Source: Opitutia bacterium ISCC 52 (GTDB lineage Bacteria; Verrucomicrobiota; Verrucomicrobiia; Opitutales; UBA2995). From it: a DNA stretch of 64,000 bases. Shown here in pieces: positions 4,101-62,298 of this stretch. Both the position numbers and the translations under genes were made by a program. Location of the stretch: the NCBI GenBank assembly GCA_014529675.2, contig CP076040.1:62001-126000 (forward strand). The letters are read 5' to 3'. The stretch's first letter is position 1. Each line of letters opens with the position of its first letter. A model generated the notes under the pieces. The model made no database searches. It was given only the letters and a program-made list of their open reading frames with translations, and was not told where the DNA came from.

Positions 4101-5316
4101 CCATGGCTACGTCGAGATCAGGTCGCATCGCTTTGGCGGCTAATTGATATTCAACGAACAGTTCCCCGGGCATGTTCAACACTCGCGCCTTACCCACGCT
4201 CAAACAGGAGATGTTGATGGCATGTCCCTCATTATAGCGACGGAGCCAAGCTAACTTATCCACCTCGGTGAGAAACGCGTCTTCTGCTTGACCCGACTTC
4301 AATAGTTCAAGGAGCTTCTCCTCATCAATATGATCCGCAGGCTCCAGACGCACCGGTTCTATGGCCCAACCGATGTCGTCAGCAGTAAGCGGATGTTTCA
4401 AAGTGGTGGTCCAGGCCTTTCGCATGCCTTGTGCCAGGCGGTCGGCCAAAACCATTCGATTTTCCGTATCACCGTCATTGTATTTACCTGCACCGATGTT
4501 TCCACCTGCTCCGTTGAAATGCACATGCAAAGCCGCTGGCTGTCCTTGCCCACGAATGAATCGAGCAATTCCGGGAAAGTCCGGACTGGGAACGCCGGTA
4601 CGGTAGTAGCTTTGCGGGTGGCAGGCGTAGTAACTCAGAACAGCCACCGGTTGATCTTCGTTCCAAAACGAAAGTAAGGACACTTCCGGATCGATCACGC
4701 CTTCCGGTTCGGCTCGAAGCCTTGGGTCAGTCGTTCGAGTCCAACGCATTTCTCTAAATGTACCGTCTTCCTCAAGCATGCGACGATTGGAGGCGATCTT
4801 TTCAACTTCCACTTCTCCCCAACCATAATGCGTGACAGGTTGCGCATCTGGAAGGGCGTCTCGAATCGCATCGGCTGCGCGCTTGATAACGACTCGTGCA
4901 AAGTCACTTTGTAGCCGCGCGTAGCCTTCCAGTCCGAGCTCCTTAACAATCTTTTCAGCTGTAAAGTCGGCCCCGGGCGCGTCGTGTTGATGCAGCGCAT
5001 GAACGGCAACATGTTGGCGATCTGTTCCTGCTGCGTCGGCCAGGGCATCTCGAAACACGTCCTGTGCTTCATTCGAAACGCCTATCCAATCAATCGCGCC
5101 CATGACGATAGGTTTGTCGATTCCAGTTATGACAATTCCACGAAATCGGATGGTCAGTTCGTTGTGATGGTGAACTTCGTCATAGGCCATCATTGAACCT
5201 ACAGGTGGCGTTGCATCTACATCAAACGTGGCCACCCGAACTTCCTCAGCCTTGGCCTCGATAAGAGCGAGCGAAATAAAACAGATAGAAAGCAGAATGG
5301 GAAATAAGCGTCGCAT
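1102..5316 (-). CDS. Ceramidase-like domain fused to PVC-type heme-binding dehydrogenase
   Basis: A 1404-residue exported protein starting with signal peptide MRRLFPILLSICFISLALI. Residues about 24-455 resemble the N-terminal domain of neutral/alkaline non-lysosomal ceramidase: the opening FDVDATPP, the His-rich HALHQHDAPGADF and GAGGNIGAGKYN, as expected for its zinc amidohydrolase core. Residues about 470-880 form a PVC membrane-bound dehydrogenase propeller (FEVAEGFEMQLVVAEPNVVE, DGDGHYEW, DTDGDGEAE). HEAT-like helices follow, then a C-terminal cytochrome c domain with CMVCH at 1285-1289. The gene is third in a leftward set, 26 bases after the sulfatase. The likely role is periplasmic amide cleavage coupled to, or merely tethered with, redox chemistry; the substrate is unknown and ceramide is not implied. 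Confidence 0.85.
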   Translation of the reverse strand: MRRLFPILLSICFISLALIEAKAEEVRVATFDVDATPPVGSMMAYDEVHHHNELTIRFRGIVITGIDKPIVMGAIDWIGVSNEAQDVFRDALADAAGTDRQHVAVHALHQHDAPGADFTAEKIVKELGLEGYARLQSDFARVVIKRAADAIRDALPDAQPVTHYGWGEVEVEKIASNRRMLEEDGTFREMRWTRTTDPRLRAEPEGVIDPEVSLLSFWNEDQPVAVLSYYACHPQSYYRTGVPSPDFPGIARFIRGQGQPAALHVHFNGAGGNIGAGKYNDGDTENRMVLADRLAQGMRKAWTTTLKHPLTADDIGWAIEPVRLEPADHIDEEKLLELLKSGQAEDAFLTEVDKLAWLRRYNEGHAINISCLSVGKARVLNMPGELFVEYQLAAKAMRPDLDVAMAAYGEYGPGYIGTAIAYEEGGYETSDRASNVGPEAEAILTEAMEKLLGQVPEENDFRIPPRSVEDAIQSFEVAEGFEMQLVVAEPNVVEPILISYDENGQMYVAEYLKFPSKGGVSHRPDGRIRMLRDLDGDGHYEWSQVFANNIEWPTGILPWKGGVYVVAAPDLWYFKDTDGDGEAEVREKLFTGFGFRNDEGTANNLIWGLDNWIYGAGSNSSGDIRSVNDPDTKTLSLRNRDFRFHPETLEFQTISGSQQYGNSIDDWGNRFICENSKPAVQVVLPSHYLERNPYLPVSNLLAEIWEGDDVYRISPPEPWRKARTKVRLAADRVYAAPFVAHDVFTGTTGVTIYRGDAYPDSAKGNLFVGDVQSNIVHRRVLEKDGAIFKAVRVDKETEFVRSNDNWFRPTNFSNAPDGTLHISDMYREFIETPDSLPDDIYAKTDFSSGENYGRIYRLAPKGFKAPPPPQLGEASLAEWVSTLENPNSWWRETASRLIFQSQDASAVPLLRELLKSSKSELARLHALHSLEGLGALEASDIENALRDKSSGVRKHAIVLAESHLQSHSGILKRVMQLAKDSDPHVRFQAALSLGSVDDSKVAATLAGIAQRDVEDIWIRTAVLSAVPEMAIKILEVAAPQSKQSPEFLRLLLQVIGARNQEEEIQKALTLISDADHSKTRSMVLALGEGQLRAQTNLSRVAQSDPSTGKLIEELIEGAMETLSSSTENESRRKQAVNTLAHGVYETVSEPLTKLLSASETSTIQLSALAVLSGFGIDETGSALIEAFPKQSPQVRSETIETLLSRESWTRELLEAVETNQIVRGEITSVRQDLLKEHPSADIKNHAIKLFGQGASSRDAVIDDYRSALDLLGDKERGRSIFEQQCMVCHRLGTKGLRVGPDMATIQNRTAESLMVQILDPNRDVLASYTQYFIELLDGSLVSGRIESESPASITLQRAGGAEETILRQNIKSIKASNRSLMPEGLEHAIDKQQMRDLIALLLDE

Positions 5317-5342
5317 GGTTCTTATGAGATTGATCGAGAAAA

Positions 5343-6716
5343 TTAGTTTGAGTTTGTTCTGGCGGCTTTGTTGATGAGTGCCTGATTACGTTGGTCGTAA
5401 AGGGGAGGATCTATGTTAGCCTCCCATTGATCCAGCATACTGCTCATGCCAAGGGCGAGCTCCATGTTGGAATCAATCAGGTTGTTCTGTTCAGCTATAT
5501 CGCTTTCCAGGTTAAACAGAAATTGTTCGCCGGCAGGAGTGTCCAGATACTTCCACTTGCCTAATCGGACCGCGCGTTGTTCCACGACTTTGCTTCGGTG
5601 AGGGTCCAGGGCTCGCCTGAAAAACAAGGGCCGCATAGTCAGCGCTTGTCCTCCTTTCAGGATAGGCATCAGGTCTTTCCCGTCTAGGGGCCTGCCCTTG
5701 GGAGGCGACCCTCCAGCCAGCTTTAATAGTGTCGCGGTCCAGTCTATCGTTTGTATTGGTATATCAGATACGGACCCGCCGAAAATGACTTCTGGCCATC
5801 GAGCGATCGCGGGCACGCGAATGCCACCTTCCCATAGACTTCCCTTGAGCCCTTTCAGCGGAGCATTTCTTGCCAGCTTTTCGCCGCCATTATCACTTGT
5901 GAAAATGATGAGTGTGTTGTCGCTGAGATTGAGTGAGTCGATGGTATCAACGATGCGCCCTACAGCCTTGTCCAAACTCTCCACCATGGGGATGTAATGA
6001 TCATCGCGGTTTCCCTCATGCCAGCTGAATTCCGAGTTTCCATCTTCGGGCCCTTGGAAGGGGAAGTGGGGTGCGTTGAAGGATGCGAATAGGAAGAAGG
6101 GTTCTTCTTTCATCTCTTCTATGAATTGGACGGCGTAGTCTGCAGTAAGATCTGTCACATAACCATCCGGATGAATAGCTTCCTCATTAATAAACAGATC
6201 ATGTGTCCCCGTCTTATCGTAGTATTCGAAGTAGTTTACATTGCCACCTAAGCAACCGAAGAAATGATCGAAACCGTGCTGGTTGGGCCTCCAACCATCC
6301 TCATAGCCTAAGTGCCACTTTCCCGACAGCGCCGTTTGATAGCCTGCTTCTTTCAGCATGGAAGCGAGAGACATCTCTGTTGGAGGCAAGCCTTCATCCG
6401 GTGCCTGATACCAGACCGCCCATTCCAGGCCCAAGCGCTGAAAGTATCGCCCAGTCATAAAGGCCGCTCGGGTAGGGGAGCAGATAGCGCTGTTCGAGTA
6501 GTTCGAGGTGAAGCGCATACCCTCCTGTGCCAAACCATTCAGGTTTGGAGTCTCTATGTCAGGTGCTCCAAAACTACCGATATCACCATAGCCCAAATCA
6601 TCGGCCAGAATGAATATGAGGTTCGGCTTATCCTCAGGTTGTTGAACGGGGTTCTGAGCCGTTAAAGAAATACTCAACAGCAAGAGGCAGCCTATTCTGA
6701 ATAAGGCTTTTTTCAC
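5343..6716 (-). CDS. Secreted sulfatase (formylglycine type)
   Basis: A 457-residue type I sulfatase hydrolysing sulfate esters outside the cytoplasm. It has an N-terminal signal peptide ending near SLTAQNP, the metal-binding stretch LIFILADDLGYGD (residues 33-45) and the active-site motif CSPTR with the formylglycine Cys at 79. SGKWHLG follows, then TSDNGG and the C-terminal FLFNLESDIAEQNNL. No maturase for converting the Cys to formylglycine is in the window. It lies 10 bases after the Gfo/Idh/MocA gene and 26 bases before the ceramidase-like gene, so the three are probably co-transcribed. The substrate cannot be read from the sequence. Confidence 0.93.
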   Translation of the reverse strand: MKKALFRIGCLLLLSISLTAQNPVQQPEDKPNLIFILADDLGYGDIGSFGAPDIETPNLNGLAQEGMRFTSNYSNSAICSPTRAAFMTGRYFQRLGLEWAVWYQAPDEGLPPTEMSLASMLKEAGYQTALSGKWHLGYEDGWRPNQHGFDHFFGCLGGNVNYFEYYDKTGTHDLFINEEAIHPDGYVTDLTADYAVQFIEEMKEEPFFLFASFNAPHFPFQGPEDGNSEFSWHEGNRDDHYIPMVESLDKAVGRIVDTIDSLNLSDNTLIIFTSDNGGEKLARNAPLKGLKGSLWEGGIRVPAIARWPEVIFGGSVSDIPIQTIDWTATLLKLAGGSPPKGRPLDGKDLMPILKGGQALTMRPLFFRRALDPHRSKVVEQRAVRLGKWKYLDTPAGEQFLFNLESDIAEQNNLIDSNMELALGMSSMLDQWEANIDPPLYDQRNQALINKAARTNSN

Positions 6717-53682: not shown

Positions 53683-54558
53683 TCACAGCTGTTTCCTGAA
53701 TGCCTGCAGGGCGTCATTCTCTTTACTCACTTTGCAGATGAAGACCTGCTCCAGTTTGGCGTCTTCGGCTTTGAGCTTGATGGAAACCAGCGATGGGTCG
53801 GTGACCCCCAGGGCTGAGTTGGGCAGTATGGAAAAACCGCTGCCGGCTATGACCATAGCGAGGATGGCGGGCACTCCATTGGTTTCGCTGCCGATGGTGG
53901 AAAGCTTGCGGTTGAAGATGCGGGTAAGCTTTTCGCGATAGGCGGGAGCGAACACTTCGGATAAGGTAACCAGGTTTTCTTCGGAAAGCTCGACCGGTAG
54001 CAAGGAACGTTTGTGAGATAGCGGATGCTCTTTGGGCAGGATGACGCGAAGGTCCTCTGTTTTCCAGGGCACAATCTGCAGTCCGCGGATGGCACGCTTG
54101 GGTCGGACTCCGAGAAAGGCTCCATCCAGGCGACCGGCCTCCAGCTCTTCCAGCAGGCGGGCAGGGGAGAGATCAGACAAGGCGAGCTGGGTGTCAGGGT
54201 GTTTCTGCCGGAATTGCTTAAACAGTTTCAGCAGTTGTTCCTCCATCAATGCCCCCACGAAACCAATGCGCAGGCGCTTGGGTTCTCCTCTAGCCGCTCG
54301 GCGGGCGGCCTCCCTGGCGCGGTTAAGAATGGTGGGAATTTGATAGGACTCATTGAGGAAGAGCTCGCCAGCCCGGGTGAGACGGATGCGCTTTCCTTCT
54401 CGATGAAAGAGCTTCGCGCCGATGGCTGACTCCAGCTCCTGAATGTGACGGCTGAGAGGTGGTTGCGAGATATTCAGGCGCTTGGCCGCGTTGGTGAAAT
54501 GGAAATCGCGGCAGACTTCGAGAAAGCACTCCAACTGTTTCAGGGAAATATCAATCAT
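53683..54558 (-). CDS. LysR-type transcriptional regulator
   Basis: A 291-residue LysR protein: winged helix at 1-60 (LKQLECFLEVCRDFHFTNAA, ISQPPLSRHIQELESAIGAK, LFHREGKRIRLTRAGELFL), linker helix, then the two-lobed effector domain (KRLRIGFVGALMEEQLLKLF, RLDGAFLGVRP, LSHKRSLLPVELSEENLVTL, GSGFSILPNSAL). It is divergent from the aminotransferase gene at 54650 with 91 bases between, the classical arrangement of a LysR regulator and its target. The inducer is not evident; an amino acid is plausible given the neighbour. Confidence 0.92.
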   Translation of the reverse strand: MIDISLKQLECFLEVCRDFHFTNAAKRLNISQPPLSRHIQELESAIGAKLFHREGKRIRLTRAGELFLNESYQIPTILNRAREAARRAARGEPKRLRIGFVGALMEEQLLKLFKQFRQKHPDTQLALSDLSPARLLEELEAGRLDGAFLGVRPKRAIRGLQIVPWKTEDLRVILPKEHPLSHKRSLLPVELSEENLVTLSEVFAPAYREKLTRIFNRKLSTIGSETNGVPAILAMVIAGSGFSILPNSALGVTDPSLVSIKLKAEDAKLEQVFICKVSKENDALQAFRKQL

Positions 54559-54649
54559 ATTATAAAAGTATCAATATAAGATTTAGATAGCATTAGTGTA
54601 TTTAAGCAATCTCTGTTATTCTTGAAGCATAACGAACTCAGCACTTACC
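54559..54649. promoter_or_regulatory. Divergent LysR/aminotransferase promoter region
   Basis: A strikingly AT-rich 91-base gap between the two start codons. LysR regulators typically bind T-N11-A sites in such gaps and repress themselves while activating the neighbour. Several overlapping AT-rich half-sites (for example ATAAAAGTAT, CAATATAAG) are present, but I could not single out one. Confidence 0.4.
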
Positions 54650-55810
54650 ATGTACGCCTCAAGAATCAGTCGCCTAACGGGCTCCGTTGCCCGTGAAATC
54701 CTATCCCACGCAAATAAGAAGGACATGTTGTCCTTTGCTGGAGGTTTGCCGGCCACCGAGGCCTTTGAGGGTTTGGAGATGCCGGATGAGAAAGGTTCCA
54801 GCTTTCAGTATGGAGCATCCGAAGGGGAGCAGTCGTTGCGTGAACTCTTTGCCAATCGCTTTCAAGCCAAAGGCATTGAGTGTGGCTTTGAGCAGGTATT
54901 AATAACCTCCGGGGCCCAGCAGGGAGTCGACTTGGTGAGCAAGCTGTTTATTGAGCCGGGTATTCGTGTTGGCATTGAGAAGCCCACTTACCTGGCGGCC
55001 ATTCAATCGTTCGCTCTGTTCGGTGCAGCGTTTGACACCTTTTCTCTCGAACCTGATGGCCCCAACTTGGAGGAATTCGAACAGGTCCTGCAAAAGGGCG
55101 AAGTTCGATTCATTTATCTCTGTCCCAGTTTTCAAAATCCGTCGGGAATTTGCTACTCATTGGAAAAGCGGAAAGCGGTGGCGGCCTTATTGGATAAGTA
55201 CGAGGTAACGCTTATCGAAGACGACCCCTATGGCGAACTGAACTATACGGACGCTTGCACGGTTCCTATCTGTTCGTTTCTGAAGAAGGCCAAGTGGATT
55301 CAATTCAACACCGTATCCAAAATCCTGGCACCGGGATTACGGTTAGGTTGCCTGGTTTGTTCTCCAGAATTTTTCCCTTACCTCTTAAAACTGAAACAGG
55401 CTGCTGATTTGCATTCGAATCGTTTTTCACAAGCAGTCGTTCATCAATGGTTGTCGAATGAGGAGATGATGAGCCAGCGAACTCAACAGCTGCGATCCCT
55501 CTACTATGAGAAGCAGCGGTTGATGGCTCAGTCGTTGGATAAATATTTCAAAGATATTGCCGAATGGAATACTCCTGAGGGAGGCCTGTTCTTTTGGTTG
55601 CGATTGAAAGAGGAGATGGATGCCCGTGACTTGCTGGGTCGTACCTTGGAGAAAGGTGTGGCCTTTATGCCTGGTGGACCGTTCTTTCCGACGGAGAAAG
55701 AAGGAGCAGCATACATACGTTTGAATTTTAGTAACCCACCGAGTGAGCGTATAGAAGAAGGATTGAAGGTATTGGCTGAGCAGGTGAAACAAACAGCGGT
55801 GGTAGCTTAG
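54650..55810 (+). CDS. PLP-dependent aminotransferase, class I/II (2-aminoadipate/MocR-like group)
   Basis: A 386-residue cytoplasmic aminotransferase without a DNA-binding domain. Fold type I landmarks are all there: LSFAGGLPATEAF, FQYGASEGEQSLRELFANRF, VLITSGAQQGVDLVSKLFIE, CPSFQNPSGICYSLEKRKAV, LIEDDPYGELNY with the pyridine Asp, and NTVSKILAPGLRLGCLV with the Schiff-base Lys. These match LysN-like and MocR-domain aminotransferases that act on 2-aminoadipate, aromatic or branched amino acids. The order with the divergent LysR gene implies regulation by that protein. Family confident, substrate unknown. Confidence 0.9.
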   Translation: MYASRISRLTGSVAREILSHANKKDMLSFAGGLPATEAFEGLEMPDEKGSSFQYGASEGEQSLRELFANRFQAKGIECGFEQVLITSGAQQGVDLVSKLFIEPGIRVGIEKPTYLAAIQSFALFGAAFDTFSLEPDGPNLEEFEQVLQKGEVRFIYLCPSFQNPSGICYSLEKRKAVAALLDKYEVTLIEDDPYGELNYTDACTVPICSFLKKAKWIQFNTVSKILAPGLRLGCLVCSPEFFPYLLKLKQAADLHSNRFSQAVVHQWLSNEEMMSQRTQQLRSLYYEKQRLMAQSLDKYFKDIAEWNTPEGGLFFWLRLKEEMDARDLLGRTLEKGVAFMPGGPFFPTEKEGAAYIRLNFSNPPSERIEEGLKVLAEQVKQTAVVA

Positions 55811-56242: not shown

Positions 56243-57520
56243 CTACCAGTAACGCAGTGCGTCTTGAAACAGGGCAGTCAGGTCTGACTCGGTAGCTGCT
56301 TTGGGAGAAAGCTTGGTCACCCGATGTTGTGGCAGTGTGCCTTCTACCAGCTTTGGAATATCTGCTTCCGAATAGCCGACTGCCTCCAGCCCATTGGGCA
56401 TGTTCAGGGCTTTCATGAATTCAATGATTCGTTGGGCCAATGCTTCTCCGATGTCAGAATCTGAAACGCCATCTACCTTTGCTGCCAGGGCTATAGCTGC
56501 CTGGCGGTGACGTTTGGGGTTGGTCGAAGCGGTGAATCGAAACACCGCGGGTGCATTGAGGATGACCGACATGCCATGGGGAACGAGTGGGTGGTCGGTG
56601 TTGAATCCCTCGGGCACAAATTCCCGAACGTGACTCGAGACCGGGTAGGACATGCCGTGAGGCAGGTGAACCCCGGCATTGCCAAAACCTACGCCTGCTA
56701 TACCCGCGGCCAGGTGCATACGTCCTCGAGCTTCAATGTCGTTGGAATCCTGATACGCGCGGATCAAATACTGGTCGACCATTCGAAGGGCTTCGAGCGA
56801 CCACAAATCGCTGATGGGGTTTGAGCCCTGGTAAGCGGGACGGAGGATGGGTCGCTCGGGTCGTGGGCGTTCCTGAAAGTGGATGGCGGTGTAAGATTCG
56901 ATGGCGTGGCTGAGGACATCCAAGCCGGTAGATGCTACGATCGTGGCAGGAAGGCTGCTCAGGTTCTTCGGATCAATCAGCCCCAGAGTTGGCTTAAGCT
57001 GCCTGTGGGCAATGCCCGTCTTGGCATGAATGGAACTGAGGTCGAAAATTGATACGCCTGTTGTTTCGCTTCCTGTTCCACAGGTCGTTGGAATCGCATA
57101 CAAGGGTTTCACAGGTCCTGGCACCGGCTTTCCTTTACCAATGGGTGCGTTTACGTAGTCGAGTAGATCCGCAGGATAAGTCGTGTAGAGATTGACTGCC
57201 TTGGCGGTATCAATAACCGAGCCGCCACCAACGGCGACAATGCAATCAAATGCTTGTTCTTCGGCAAAGCGAATGGCGTGCAGAAAGGATTGGTCATTCG
57301 GCTCCACACGAACCTGCTTATACAGCTGGTAGGAGATCTTACTGGTTTTCAGGGAGGCGAGTGTGTTTTCGACCGGTGGAAGTTTTGCGAGGTTTTCATC
57401 GGTGATGACCAGGGCTGTTTGGTGCCCTGCATCACTCAAATCCATACCAATCTCTGCGGTGATGCCTTCACCGAAGCGAATGTTCGATGTCGCCATCTCA
57501 AATGCGGTATCATTTTTCAT
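56243..57520 (-). CDS. Iron-containing alcohol dehydrogenase, hydroxyacid-oxoacid transhydrogenase-like
   Basis: From the ATG at 57520 (425 residues; a TTG at 57535 is the alternative) this is a group III metal-dependent dehydrogenase. CIVAVGGGSVIDTAKAVNLY binds the nucleotide, LYAIPTTCGTGSETTGVSIF follows, and GLDVLSHAIESY with VHLPHGMSYPVSSHVREFVP carries metal-binding His residues. NTDHPLVPHGMSVILNAPAV and the Pro-Lys-Arg-His after it resemble ADHFE1-type hydroxyacid-oxoacid transhydrogenase. That enzyme oxidises 4-hydroxybutyrate to succinate semialdehyde using 2-oxoglutarate. It starts 11 bases after the IclR gene stop, so both share a transcript from the palindrome at 58361. Confidence 0.88.
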   Translation of the reverse strand: MKNDTAFEMATSNIRFGEGITAEIGMDLSDAGHQTALVITDENLAKLPPVENTLASLKTSKISYQLYKQVRVEPNDQSFLHAIRFAEEQAFDCIVAVGGGSVIDTAKAVNLYTTYPADLLDYVNAPIGKGKPVPGPVKPLYAIPTTCGTGSETTGVSIFDLSSIHAKTGIAHRQLKPTLGLIDPKNLSSLPATIVASTGLDVLSHAIESYTAIHFQERPRPERPILRPAYQGSNPISDLWSLEALRMVDQYLIRAYQDSNDIEARGRMHLAAGIAGVGFGNAGVHLPHGMSYPVSSHVREFVPEGFNTDHPLVPHGMSVILNAPAVFRFTASTNPKRHRQAAIALAAKVDGVSDSDIGEALAQRIIEFMKALNMPNGLEAVGYSEADIPKLVEGTLPQHRVTKLSPKAATESDLTALFQDALRYW

Positions 57521-57531
57521 GGGGTCTTTCT

Positions 57532-58341
57532 TCAACAGATGAGTTGTGAGCCCAATTCTTTGGAGGCAGTCCTTAGAGTAGGCAAGATTTCTGTTTCCAT
57601 TGCTCGCTTGGAGGTTTGCATGGCTTGGACTCCGACTGTCATGGCAGCGATAACTCGTTGATTTTGATTCCGCACCGAGACGGAAACAGAGCGAAGTCCG
57701 ATCTCCAACTCTTGATTGACCAACGAGTACCCACTGTAGCGGGATTCTCGAATAACTTCCAAGAGATCATTGATTTCGGTCTTGGTGTACTCGGTGCGTT
57801 TGACCCGGTCCATGGCTTTGAGTCTGCTGAGAATATCTTCATCGTCATAGTCTGCCAACAAGACTCTCCCCAATGAGGAGCAGTAGGCGGGTAAGCGACT
57901 TCCTATGCCCAGTGTTAAATCTATTACTTTCTTCGCGGCTGAGCGGGCCACATAAACGACTTCGTTCTCATCCAAGACGGCGAGGGAACAAGATTCACCG
58001 GTGGCATCCTTTACACGATCCAAGAATTCCTGAGCTTGAGTGGTGAGAGGTGATGCTGAGAAGTAAGTCTGGCTCAACGAAATGACTTTGGGTTCCAGAT
58101 GAAATCCATCCGCGGATTTGCGGACATAGCCCAACTGCTCCAGGGTATAGAGACAGCGGCGAACCACTGCACGGGAGAGTCCTGTTCGTTCGCTGAGATG
58201 GGTCATCTTTAATCCGGTAGCATTGTCTGAAAATGCGCTCAATACGGCCAATCCCCGGGCCAATGAGTTCATGAAATTGGGATCCCCTTTGCGAAACAGT
58301 ATGGAAGCTTGGTTCTTTTGATCTATGGGAGTTGACGTCAT
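57532..58341 (-). CDS. IclR family transcriptional regulator
   Basis: From the ATG at 58341 (269 residues; a TTG at 58377 would lie inside the palindromic operator) this is a full-length IclR protein. The winged helix is at about 24-85 (NSLARGLAVLSAFSDNATGL, HLSERTGLSRAVVRRCLYTL, LGYVRKSADGFHLEPKVISL). The effector domain follows (GESCSLAVLDENEVVYVARS, GSRLPAYCSSLGRVLLA, SGYSLVNQELEIGLRSVSVS). The sequence leans to the PcaR/PcaU/PobR side of the family, which respond to aromatic or short organic acids. It heads the leftward transcript with the dehydrogenase and faces the SDR-ALDH-esterase genes across a perfect 34-bp palindrome. Confidence 0.92.
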   Translation of the reverse strand: MTSTPIDQKNQASILFRKGDPNFMNSLARGLAVLSAFSDNATGLKMTHLSERTGLSRAVVRRCLYTLEQLGYVRKSADGFHLEPKVISLSQTYFSASPLTTQAQEFLDRVKDATGESCSLAVLDENEVVYVARSAAKKVIDLTLGIGSRLPAYCSSLGRVLLADYDDEDILSRLKAMDRVKRTEYTKTEINDLLEVIRESRYSGYSLVNQELEIGLRSVSVSVRNQNQRVIAAMTVGVQAMQTSKRAMETEILPTLRTASKELGSQLIC

Positions 58342-58360
58342 TTTATGCAATTGAAACGAT

Positions 58361-58394
58361 GTTCTTTCTTCGAACAAATGTTCGAAGAAAGAAC
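58361..58394. promoter_or_regulatory. Perfect 34-bp palindrome, probable IclR operator
   Basis: GTTCTTTCTTCGAACA (58361-58376) and TGTTCGAAGAAAGAAC (58379-58394) are exact reverse complements around a two-base AA centre. It lies 19 bases upstream of the IclR start and 65 bases before the SDR start, the expected position for a divergent autoregulatory operator. The GTTCG/CGAAC half-sites are of the kind bound by PcaU/PobR-type IclR proteins. I saw no second copy in the window. Confidence 0.75.
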
Positions 58395-58459
58395 ATTTAG
58401 GTCAACGCAAGAGTGTTGCCCGATCTCCAAACAAGCGGATAGGTTTTAAGTATCTTACT

Positions 58460-59212
58460 ATGAGCGAGCAGATGAAGCGTGTGGCGTTAATTACAGGAAG
58501 TGGTTCTGGCGTAGGTCGAGCATGTGCAGTGCGATTTGCGAAATTGGGCTTTGATCTAGTGGTTAACTACTTGGGTAGTGAGGATGAAGCCCAAGAGACT
58601 CGTCGATTAGCCGAGATTCATGGGGCGGAGGTGCTGTTAGCGAATTGTGACGTTAGTCAAAATGAGGAGGTGGTGGAAATGCTCCGAAAAGTGGAGGATC
58701 ATTTTGGCCGACTCGATTTGGTCGTTAACTCGGCAGGCACGACTCACTTTATCGACCACACAGATTTGGACGCTATGGACGAGGCCAAGTGGGATTCGAT
58801 CCTGGCGGTGAATACCAAAGGTCCGTTTTTTGTGATTCGTGCGGCGATACCCTTGCTACAGCAATCGGGAAATGCAGCCGTGGTGAATATTTCATCCGCT
58901 GCTGCTTTGTCGGGCTCCGGGTCGTCCATTGCCTATTGTGCCAGTAAAGGTGCCTTAAATACGATGACCAAGTCTTTAGCAAAAGCCTTTGCTCCACAGA
59001 TACGTATCAACGCTGTTTGTCCAGGCCCCATTGACAGTACCTGGCTACGTCAAGGCATGACTGAGAAAGAGATCGATGAGCGTGTTTCGGTGATTCCCAT
59101 TCCCGAGCTCATTCAGCCGAACGATGTCGCGGACACCGTGGTCTACCTCGCACTCGAATCCTCCAAATCAACCGGGCAGATTCTTGTGTTGGATGGTGGG
59201 AGAACGATGTGA
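58460..59212 (+). CDS. Short-chain dehydrogenase/reductase (FabG-like)
   Basis: A 250-residue classical SDR: nucleotide motif TGSGSGVG at 12-19, NSAG at 90-93, active-site Ser145/Ser146 in VVNISSAAAL, and Tyr159 and Lys163 in YCASKGALNTM. The CPGPIDSTWL and LVLDGGRTM segments are usual. An internal ATG at 58472 is an alternative start. It is the first gene of the rightward transcript from the palindrome and probably oxidises a hydroxyl group released by the esterase two genes downstream, or reduces a keto intermediate. Substrate unknown. Confidence 0.9.
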   Translation: MSEQMKRVALITGSGSGVGRACAVRFAKLGFDLVVNYLGSEDEAQETRRLAEIHGAEVLLANCDVSQNEEVVEMLRKVEDHFGRLDLVVNSAGTTHFIDHTDLDAMDEAKWDSILAVNTKGPFFVIRAAIPLLQQSGNAAVVNISSAAALSGSGSSIAYCASKGALNTMTKSLAKAFAPQIRINAVCPGPIDSTWLRQGMTEKEIDERVSVIPIPELIQPNDVADTVVYLALESSKSTGQILVLDGGRTM

Positions 59213-59312: not shown

Positions 59313-60728
59313 ATGAAGTTTTTTCTTAATGGAAGTTGGCAGGACCGCGATGAGGTTCTCGAAGTAATTAATCCTTACGATGGTTCGTTGATTGATACGG
59401 TGCCGAAGGCTTCCCCAGACGATGTGAATACGGCGATTGCTGCGGCGCTTGAGGGAGCCAAGGTGATGGAGGCTTTAACTGGCTATGACCGCTTTTTAAT
59501 TCTTCGGAAAACGGCCGACTTGATGCGTGAGCGTCAGGAAGCCCTTGCCCAGGTTCTCAGCTCAGAGGAGGGAAAGGCGATTGCTGAAGGAAGACTCGAA
59601 GTGGATCGGGCCGCCCAGACGATCGAGTTGAGCGGTGAGGAAGCGAAGCGCCTGTCGGGAGAGATCCTACCACTGGATGGCGGCAAAGATGTTAGAAACA
59701 AACTGGGCTTCACCTTACGTGTTCCTTGTGGCGTTGTCGCGGCGGTTACCCCTTTTAATTTCCCGCTCAATCTGGTTTGTCACAAGGTCGGTCCCGCGCT
59801 GGCAGCCGGCAACGCGGTGGTGCTTAAACCAGCTAGTGACACTCCGCTCATTTCTCTGAAGCTCGTCGAGATTTTGCTTGAGGCTGGGATGCCACCCCTT
59901 GCGCTATCCTGTATTACTGGAAGTGGTCGCACGGTTGGCGAAGGTATTTGTTCAGACCCTCGGGTGCGGAAGATTTCATTCACGGGAAGTAAAGAGGTTG
60001 GCGCACATATTTGCTCAGTGGCTGGAATCAAAAAAGTAACAATGGAGTTGGGCTCCAATTGCCCCATGATCGTATTGCCCGATGCCGACATGGACTTGGT
60101 CGCTCAGCAAACAGTGGCTTCCGGATTCGCAAATGCCGGGCAGGTTTGTATATCGGCACAACGCTTATTGGTGGTCGATTCGGTGCACGACGATTTTATG
60201 AATGCGGTACTTCCCAAGGTAGAAGGGCTTATTGCAGGCAACCAACTCGACGAAGGCTCCAATGTGGGTCCTATGGTGCGTGAGTCGGACGCGGTTCGGG
60301 TTGAAAGTTGGATCCAGGAAGCTGGAGCTGCAGGTGCCCGTGTTCTGGCGGGTGGCCAACGAAATGGAGCCATCGTGCAACCTGCAATTGTGGATGGTGT
60401 CACATCGGATATGCGCATTTCTCGGGAAGAACTATTTGGGCCTGCTGTGGGCGTTCAGCGAGTGAAGGATGTGGATGAGGCCATTCGTTTGGCCAACGAT
60501 TCTGAGTTTGGGTTGAGCGCCAGCATATTTACGCAGGACATTGATGCTGCAGTTCGCTTTGCACGTGAAGTGCGTAGCGGAAACATTCACATAAACTGGG
60601 GTCCTATGTGGCGGACCGATTCCATGCCCTATGGCGGGTTGAAGGATAGTGGTCTCGGTCGCGAAGGTCCCAAGTATGCCGTTGAAGAAATGACAGAAAT
60701 GAAGTCAGTCGTGATTCATTCTAAGTAA
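59313..60728 (+). CDS. NAD(P)-dependent aldehyde dehydrogenase
   Basis: A 471-residue ALDH with all key residues: Lys172 in VVLKPASDTPLISLK, Glu245 in VTMELGSNCPM, Cys279 in ANAGQVCISAQRL, and NWGPMWRTDSMPYGGLKDSG near the end. VVAAVTPFNFPLNLVCHKVG places it among the small-molecule ALDHs that include lactaldehyde, phosphonoacetaldehyde and succinate semialdehyde dehydrogenases. With the ADHFE1-like gene on the same operator, succinate semialdehyde is a reasonable but unproven substrate. It starts 100 bases after the SDR gene and ends 7 bases before the esterase. Confidence 0.92.
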   Translation: MKFFLNGSWQDRDEVLEVINPYDGSLIDTVPKASPDDVNTAIAAALEGAKVMEALTGYDRFLILRKTADLMRERQEALAQVLSSEEGKAIAEGRLEVDRAAQTIELSGEEAKRLSGEILPLDGGKDVRNKLGFTLRVPCGVVAAVTPFNFPLNLVCHKVGPALAAGNAVVLKPASDTPLISLKLVEILLEAGMPPLALSCITGSGRTVGEGICSDPRVRKISFTGSKEVGAHICSVAGIKKVTMELGSNCPMIVLPDADMDLVAQQTVASGFANAGQVCISAQRLLVVDSVHDDFMNAVLPKVEGLIAGNQLDEGSNVGPMVRESDAVRVESWIQEAGAAGARVLAGGQRNGAIVQPAIVDGVTSDMRISREELFGPAVGVQRVKDVDEAIRLANDSEFGLSASIFTQDIDAAVRFAREVRSGNIHINWGPMWRTDSMPYGGLKDSGLGREGPKYAVEEMTEMKSVVIHSK

Positions 60729-60735
60729 GCAACTT

Positions 60736-62298
60736 ATGAAGCGTTGGGTATTACTTCTATTTTTGGTTCCGACCATTTGTTTCGGTGTACGCGGAAAGCC
60801 GGTACAGACAAAAGAAGGTATCTTGTCTGGGTTCGTTCTGGACCAGGAGACGGGGTTGGAAGTATTTCGAGGCGTTCGTTATGCAGAGCCGCCGGTTAAA
60901 AATCTGCGTTGGCGTGCCCCCTTGCCGGTTAAAGAATGGCAGGGTTTAAAAATGTGCCAGTTGTTTTCTCCCATTGCTCCTCAGAATGTGGGAAACGGTG
61001 TGAGCGAGCACCAGAGCGAAGACTGTTTGTTTCTTAATATTTGGACGACTAAAACAAATCAGCCCGAAGCTAAACTACCTGTCATGGTGTGGATTCATGG
61101 CGGAGGATTAAATAGAGGGTGGGGACATAAGGCATTTTACGACGGGAGTTCCTTTGCGGAGCGAGAGGTTGTCCTGGTTTCAATCAATTATCGTTTGGGA
61201 GCGTTAGGTTTTCTGGCTCATCCCGGCCTATCGGCAGAGACAGGCTATGGGGTATCTGGCAACTATGGGATTCTAGATCAGATAGAAGCTCTACGATGGG
61301 TTCAGCGAAACATAAAGGCCTTCGGCGGAGATCCCGACAATGTGACGATCTTTGGTGAATCAGCAGGAGGGACGAGCGTCTCAGTGCTTTGCTCCTCGCC
61401 ATTGGCGAGTGGATTGTTCCACAAAGCCATTATTCAAAGCCCTTGGATGTTTGGCTATATTGACAATATGGCTGAATCGAATTTTGCAAATCTGAAGCAG
61501 CCCGTAGCAAAGCTACCAAGTGCAGAAGAGTTAGGAGTTGAGTGGGCCAGTAAGCACACCACAGATACAGGGCCTGAAGGTATAGCCATTCTAAGAGCGT
61601 TGCCATTTAGCGAGGTCGTAAAAACGGTTGGCTACTACCGGACCCGACCGACGATTGATGGCTGGTTATTACCCGATCACCCAGAGCATATTTTCAGCAA
61701 AGGGGAGCAAGCAGATATCCCGGTCATCATTGGCACAACCAAAGACGAGGGGAACTATTTCTCCGGCTTTGTGAACTTTGAGACACGTTCTGCATTTGCG
61801 AAAAAGCTTCAGGGGTTTTATGGGTCGCGAGCGTCAGACGTGCTCGCTCTTTATCCAGCAGAAACGAAACAGGAGTTGAAGGCTGCCGGGAGTGAGTTTG
61901 TGACGGATGCCTGGTTTGTACAGCCGGCCCGGAAACTTTTGGATGGCATGGCCCCGTTATCTTCTCCCGTTTATCAGTATCAATTTTCGAGAGGATATCC
62001 CAACAATCCAAAGCTAGGAGCTCCTCATGCTATCGAACTTCGCTACGTGTTTAACACCATCAAGGAACCTGAGAGCAATCCGGATAGCCAGCGTTTGTCG
62101 GACCAGGTGACTGATTATTGGGCGCAATTTTCCAAGACAGGAAATCCAAACCTTAAGGGACTCCCCAACTGGCCAGAATACACAGCGAAGGAAAAGATAT
62201 ACTTGGATTTGGATGTGGAAATCACCACCGGAGCAGACCTTAAGAAAGAGGCCAGCGATGTTCTGGATAAGGCAACGGTTGGGATTTATCTCCCGTAG
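60736..62298 (+). CDS. Secreted type B carboxylesterase
   Basis: A 520-residue exported carboxylesterase (signal peptide MKRWVLLLFLVPTICFG). FRGVRYAEPPVKNLRWRAP opens the fold, SEDCLFLNIW is the family motif, HGGG at 121-124 forms the oxyanion hole and Ser209 in FGESAGGTS is the nucleophile. Catalytic Glu and His lie further on, near GTTKDEGNYF and APHAIELRYVF. It is third in the IclR-controlled set, 7 bases after the ALDH. The likely job is to cleave an external ester whose alcohol or acid part is then oxidised by the SDR, ALDH and iron dehydrogenase. Confidence 0.9.
   Translation: MKRWVLLLFLVPTICFGVRGKPVQTKEGILSGFVLDQETGLEVFRGVRYAEPPVKNLRWRAPLPVKEWQGLKMCQLFSPIAPQNVGNGVSEHQSEDCLFLNIWTTKTNQPEAKLPVMVWIHGGGLNRGWGHKAFYDGSSFAEREVVLVSINYRLGALGFLAHPGLSAETGYGVSGNYGILDQIEALRWVQRNIKAFGGDPDNVTIFGESAGGTSVSVLCSSPLASGLFHKAIIQSPWMFGYIDNMAESNFANLKQPVAKLPSAEELGVEWASKHTTDTGPEGIAILRALPFSEVVKTVGYYRTRPTIDGWLLPDHPEHIFSKGEQADIPVIIGTTKDEGNYFSGFVNFETRSAFAKKLQGFYGSRASDVLALYPAETKQELKAAGSEFVTDAWFVQPARKLLDGMAPLSSPVYQYQFSRGYPNNPKLGAPHAIELRYVFNTIKEPESNPDSQRLSDQVTDYWAQFSKTGNPNLKGLPNWPEYTAKEKIYLDLDVEITTGADLKKEASDVLDKATVGIYLP

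Follow-up and report, generated by a model that had tools for sequence, protein, structure and literature searches.

The window, which is the whole 64-kb stretch of DNA that was analysed, contains a divergent gene cluster built around a regulator gene of the IclR family. On the minus strand lie iclR itself (57532..58341, 269 aa), whose product was assigned as PcaR/PcaU/PobR-like from Pfam, NCBIfam and structure comparison, and a gene for an iron-containing alcohol dehydrogenase (Fe-ADH, 56243..57535), which shares 4 bp with the end of iclR. The plus strand carries genes for a short-chain dehydrogenase/reductase (SDR, 58460..59212), an aldehyde dehydrogenase (ALDH, 59313..60728), which is preceded by a gap of 100 bp, and a type-B carboxylesterase (60736..62298). 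This arrangement, with divergent IclR and SDR genes flanking a palindrome, is the one that the first-pass annotation described. The SDR gene starts at an ATG at 58460 and iclR likely at an ATG at 58341. The longest iclR frame (57532-58377, 281 aa) starts at a TTG inside the palindrome; because this TTG sits within the predicted operator, the ATG at 58341 is the likelier start. Additionally, a second divergent regulator pair, consisting of a LysR-family gene and an aminotransferase gene (53683-55810), adjoins the cluster and is syntenic in L009.

Between iclR and the SDR gene, positions 58359-58396 form a perfect palindrome of 38 bp, ATGTTCTTTCTTCGAACA-AA-TGTTCGAAGAAAGAACAT, in which two 18-bp arms (58359-58376 and 58379-58396) match in 18/18 pairs around the AA at 58377-58378. 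The first-pass annotation had reported a palindrome of 34 bp with 16-base arms around AA; the place was right, but the length was underestimated. Its distance of 19 bases to the IclR start is true for the 34-bp version and becomes 17 bases when measured from the full palindrome, the other edge of which lies 63 bases from the SDR start. The inverted-repeat search revealed no other perfect repeat with arms of at least 11 bp and a spacer of at most 10 within the 64-kb window. In 20 first-order Markov simulations of the window, the longest arm was 11 bp, compared with 18 bp in the palindrome. By chance, approximately 1e-5 such repeats would be expected in 64 kb and 7e-4 in the 4.8-Mb genome, and the palindrome is far beyond this expectation.

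Each arm holds the 17-bp element TGTTCGAAGAAAGAACA, of the form TGTTC-N7-GAACA, and the two copies are arranged in mirror orientation with their centres 19 bp apart. Site B (58360..58376, minus strand) is proximal to iclR and site A (58379..58395, plus strand) is proximal to the SDR gene; the predicted operator reads TGTTCTTTCTTCGAACA-tt-TGTTCGAAGAAAGAACA on the iclR strand. Each site has internal symmetry in 5/8 pairs, and it is the mirrored repetition of one and the same site that produces the long perfect symmetry. In a survey of the IclR family, tandem sites with centres 18-22 bp apart were predicted in 94/181 orthologous groups studied and were linked to tetramers (Suvorova & Gelfand 2021, PMC8222616). 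The window is alike in having two group-1 sites (TGT-11-ACA) at a centre spacing of 19 bp, and each site agrees with the group-1 consensus TGTYCRYW3RYGRACA at 14/17 positions, including all TGTYCR and GRACA end positions. In contrast to the published tandem sites, those in the window are exact inverted copies, which yields the 38-bp perfect palindrome. The earlier view that such a length is unusual for IclR operators was thus mostly mistaken; the layout is known, and all that is unusual is how exactly the two copies mirror each other.

We also compared the two sites with the published PcaU motif, TTTGTTCGATWATCGMACAMA (PMC8222616), and found 13/17 matching positions in each; the core is GAAGAAAGA in the window and GATWATCGA in the motif. 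The operators of PcaU and PobR in Acinetobacter baylyi resemble the window in their TGTTCGA half-sites and a palindrome of approximately 17 bp, and there too an additional box is known outside the palindrome (PMC8222616). PcaU, PobR and HmgR have three-box sites (PMC8222616), whereas the window contains four boxes, as two complete mirrored sites, and its target genes differ as well as its core. By its title, a paper cited in PMC8222616 (Kok et al. 1998) describes PcaU and PobR as activators.

The protein encoded next to the palindrome belongs to the IclR family, with scores of 55.6 bits for HTH_IclR and 128.2 bits for IclR_C, both above the Pfam cut-offs. Its best NCBIfam model was PcaR/PcaU/PobR (TIGR02431, 277.2 bits, E 1e-82), and its nearest solved structure was the Pca-regulon regulator 8eju (E 2e-58). 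The subfamily cut-off of TIGR02431 is 284.75 bits; the window regulator and its ortholog in genome G007 (277.3 bits) fall just under this value, and the orthologs in genomes G004 (302.3 bits), G005 (291.7 bits) and G211 (287.1 bits) exceed it. Judged by these scores, the window regulator is PcaU-like but not a subfamily member by the curated cut-off. TtgV from Pseudomonas putida, whose DNA-bound structure (2XRO) presents an IclR-family protein on DNA and is used in PMC8222616 as the family's structural reference, is a distant protein (E 1e-9) that regulates a different function, efflux.

Five loci were compared, the window included, with orthologs from three other genomes of the genus and one genome of another family in the order. 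A search of a phylum sample gave no additional iclR ortholog, and a scan of the genome contigs returned G007 and G004 again, together with one distant protein without a site. The regulator is 94% identical in G007 and 54-59% identical in the three more distant orthologs (G004, G005 and G211), and the five proteins differ hardly at all in their recognition helix region, TGLSRAVV(R/S)RCLYTL. A site of this type, corresponding to site A, lies upstream of iclR at the same place in all five loci, and both sites are present at the 19-bp spacing in four of them (the window, G007, G004 and G211). On the iclR strand, the operators read TGTGCGATAATCGAACA-ta-TGTTCGATAATAGAACG in G004, TGTTCGATTATCGGACA-at-TGTCCGATTAATGAACA in G211 and TGTTCGATTATCGAACA-tt followed by a decayed second site in G005; this decayed site retains 10/17 positions of the group-1 consensus, compared with 13-16 for the other sites of the relatives. 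The core of the distant relatives is TGTTCGATWATCGAACA-like, as in the published PcaU motif, and the better site of each distant relative agrees with that motif at 16-17/17 positions. With regard to a possible copying of site A from site B, the distances to the A and B sites of the relatives are similar by eye.

When pairs of sites at the 19-bp spacing were scored with the PcaU motif, each locus exceeded all 2000 shuffles of its own upstream region. A tandem pattern derived from these sites matched only at the iclR loci of G004 and G211 among 273 genomes of the order, with 0 matches for the reversed control; it was composed after the orthologs had been seen and leaves the window and G007 unmatched, and the result speaks for specificity and not for independent discovery. 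The operator of G007 is identical to that of the window except for TGTGCG in the inner box of the second site, a variant permitted by the PcaU motif, and one difference at the outermost pair. Even this 94%-identical ortholog breaks the long palindrome at two pairs, and the symmetry across 36 bp is 8/18 in G005, 14/18 in G004 and 15/18 in G211. The pair of sites does recur beside the orthologs, but the strict palindrome is not kept. As read from these alignments, conservation applies to the 17-bp site, paired in tandem, and does not extend to the long perfect palindrome.

The genes opposite iclR in G007 are SDR, ALDH and esterase, as in the window. The divergent cluster of G004 contains CoA-transferase A/B and an ortholog of the window ALDH (77% over 171 residues on the contig), and that of G211 contains CoA-transferase A/B, an SDR 64% identical to that of the window, an Fe-ADH (29%), a thiolase-like gene read from the sequence and an ALDH-like start (50% over 100 residues). 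A search of the window's own genome for CoA-transferase revealed no close one (best E 3e-4). In this comparison, the regulator and the predicted operator are retained while the dehydrogenase set shifts. Regulators of the PcaR/PcaU/PobR subfamily are characterised by a response to protocatechuate or 4-hydroxybenzoate and by control of beta-ketoadipate pathway genes; for the present cluster, a pathway that is beta-ketoadipate-like or handles a related acid would be plausible. In G005 (C150, L026), repeated DNA with GCGGCGCAGCCGCAGAGG units interrupts the CoA-transferase A frame opposite iclR, at approximately 5170-5500, after some 50 residues, and the broken gene adjoins the decayed second operator site. 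The interruption could be an insertion or an assembly fault; as a single case, the decayed site and the broken gene would fit relaxed selection.

Genome-wide counts rest on pattern searches. The pattern TGTTCGAWNAWNGAACA, with up to two mismatches, gave 20/32 hits, compared with 7/9 for the reversed pattern. Seven hits besides the palindrome were examined, of which five lie inside a long reading frame and two (L016 and L022) outside; L016, the one hit followed further, is a single site, and no second operator target was established. This lone intergenic palindromic site, ATTGTTCGCTCTTCGAACAAT (L016/L027, G000:C1:912280-912296), is like one operator site and lies approximately 130 bp before an uncharacterised gene.

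The palindrome is very probably the tandem operator of the adjacent PcaR/PcaU/PobR-like IclR regulator, laid out for a tetramer that would control both directions. Two dimers, as a tetramer, would occupy the two 17-bp sites, and the centre spacing of 19 bp, about two helical turns, would place them on the same face of the DNA. One tetramer bound between the divergent genes would control both iclR, by autoregulation, and the SDR-ALDH-esterase genes, and a small-molecule effector would switch it; control of the own gene and adjacent operons is the norm for IclR-family proteins (PMC8222616). The site pair, the motif match and the conservation are read from the sequence, and we infer protein binding, the tetramer, autoregulation, any activation or repression in either direction and the effector. 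The earlier proposal of an IclR operator, probably tetramer-bound and with divergent control, is well supported at the sequence level by the two dimer sites 19 bp apart and by the recurrence of the pair beside the orthologs. Control of all five genes, likewise proposed there, is more tentative, with a gap of 100 bp lying before the ALDH gene. A TTGACC at 58400..58405 on the minus strand is a candidate -35 element of the iclR promoter. In each of the five aligned loci, a TTGAC starts 8-10 bp upstream of site A, and an overlap between the operator and this promoter is therefore probable; a promoter scan recognised no full sigma-70-like promoter.

One tetramer might also switch between two dimer registers, because the four alternating boxes conform to group 1 when read as two outer pairs and come close to group 2 at the inner pair; by its sequence, this central box pair (58369..58386, TTCGAACAAATGTTCGAA) is near the published arrangement TGRAACA-N1-2-TGTTYCA. 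The exact mirror copies might stem from palindrome correction, by template switching between the arms, as the window/G007 lineage has the same changed core in both of its sites. We regard this combined account as rather unlikely; the common changed core could reflect either selection or template-switch correction.

The palindrome could also act as RNA, as a 17-bp hairpin in the iclR leader serving as an attenuator, terminator or stability element. Its predicted fold of -30 kcal/mol (z -8.5 versus shuffles) and one terminator-like scan match on the minus strand agree with this, but such folding is expected of any long palindrome, the tail CGTTTCAATT lacks a clean run of T, and the relatives retain each 17-bp DNA site and not the long stem, as evident from their symmetry counts. 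Moreover, an iclR transcript beginning within the operator would not contain the whole stem, and we consider an RNA element improbable. It is likewise very doubtful that the operator serves a regulator other than the adjacent one, encoded at another place in the genome: the window sites do depart from the PcaU motif in their core, but the site stays with the orthologous iclR across five genomes although some of the divergent genes differ, and the family norm of local control also argues against it. A LexA (SOS) box is scarcely credible. The central 14 bp of the palindrome (CGAACAAATGTTCG) fit the Gram-positive box CGAAC-N4-GTTCG, but exact TTCGAAC-N4-GTTCGAA occurs once in the genome, and near matches (26, versus 29 for the reversed control) are not in excess, so that nothing points to a regulon. 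In addition, the genes are unrelated to SOS, and G007, G005 and G211 do not preserve the element intact.

As the tandem operator of its neighbouring regulator, the palindrome would place a PcaU-type arrangement in Opitutales (Verrucomicrobia), a group missing from the taxa table of the published IclR survey (PMC8222616). Its symmetry, unusually clean, would also make it a suitable substrate for studying the seating of IclR-family tetramers on DNA, and the locus would be an example of an operator that is kept as the adjoining genes change.
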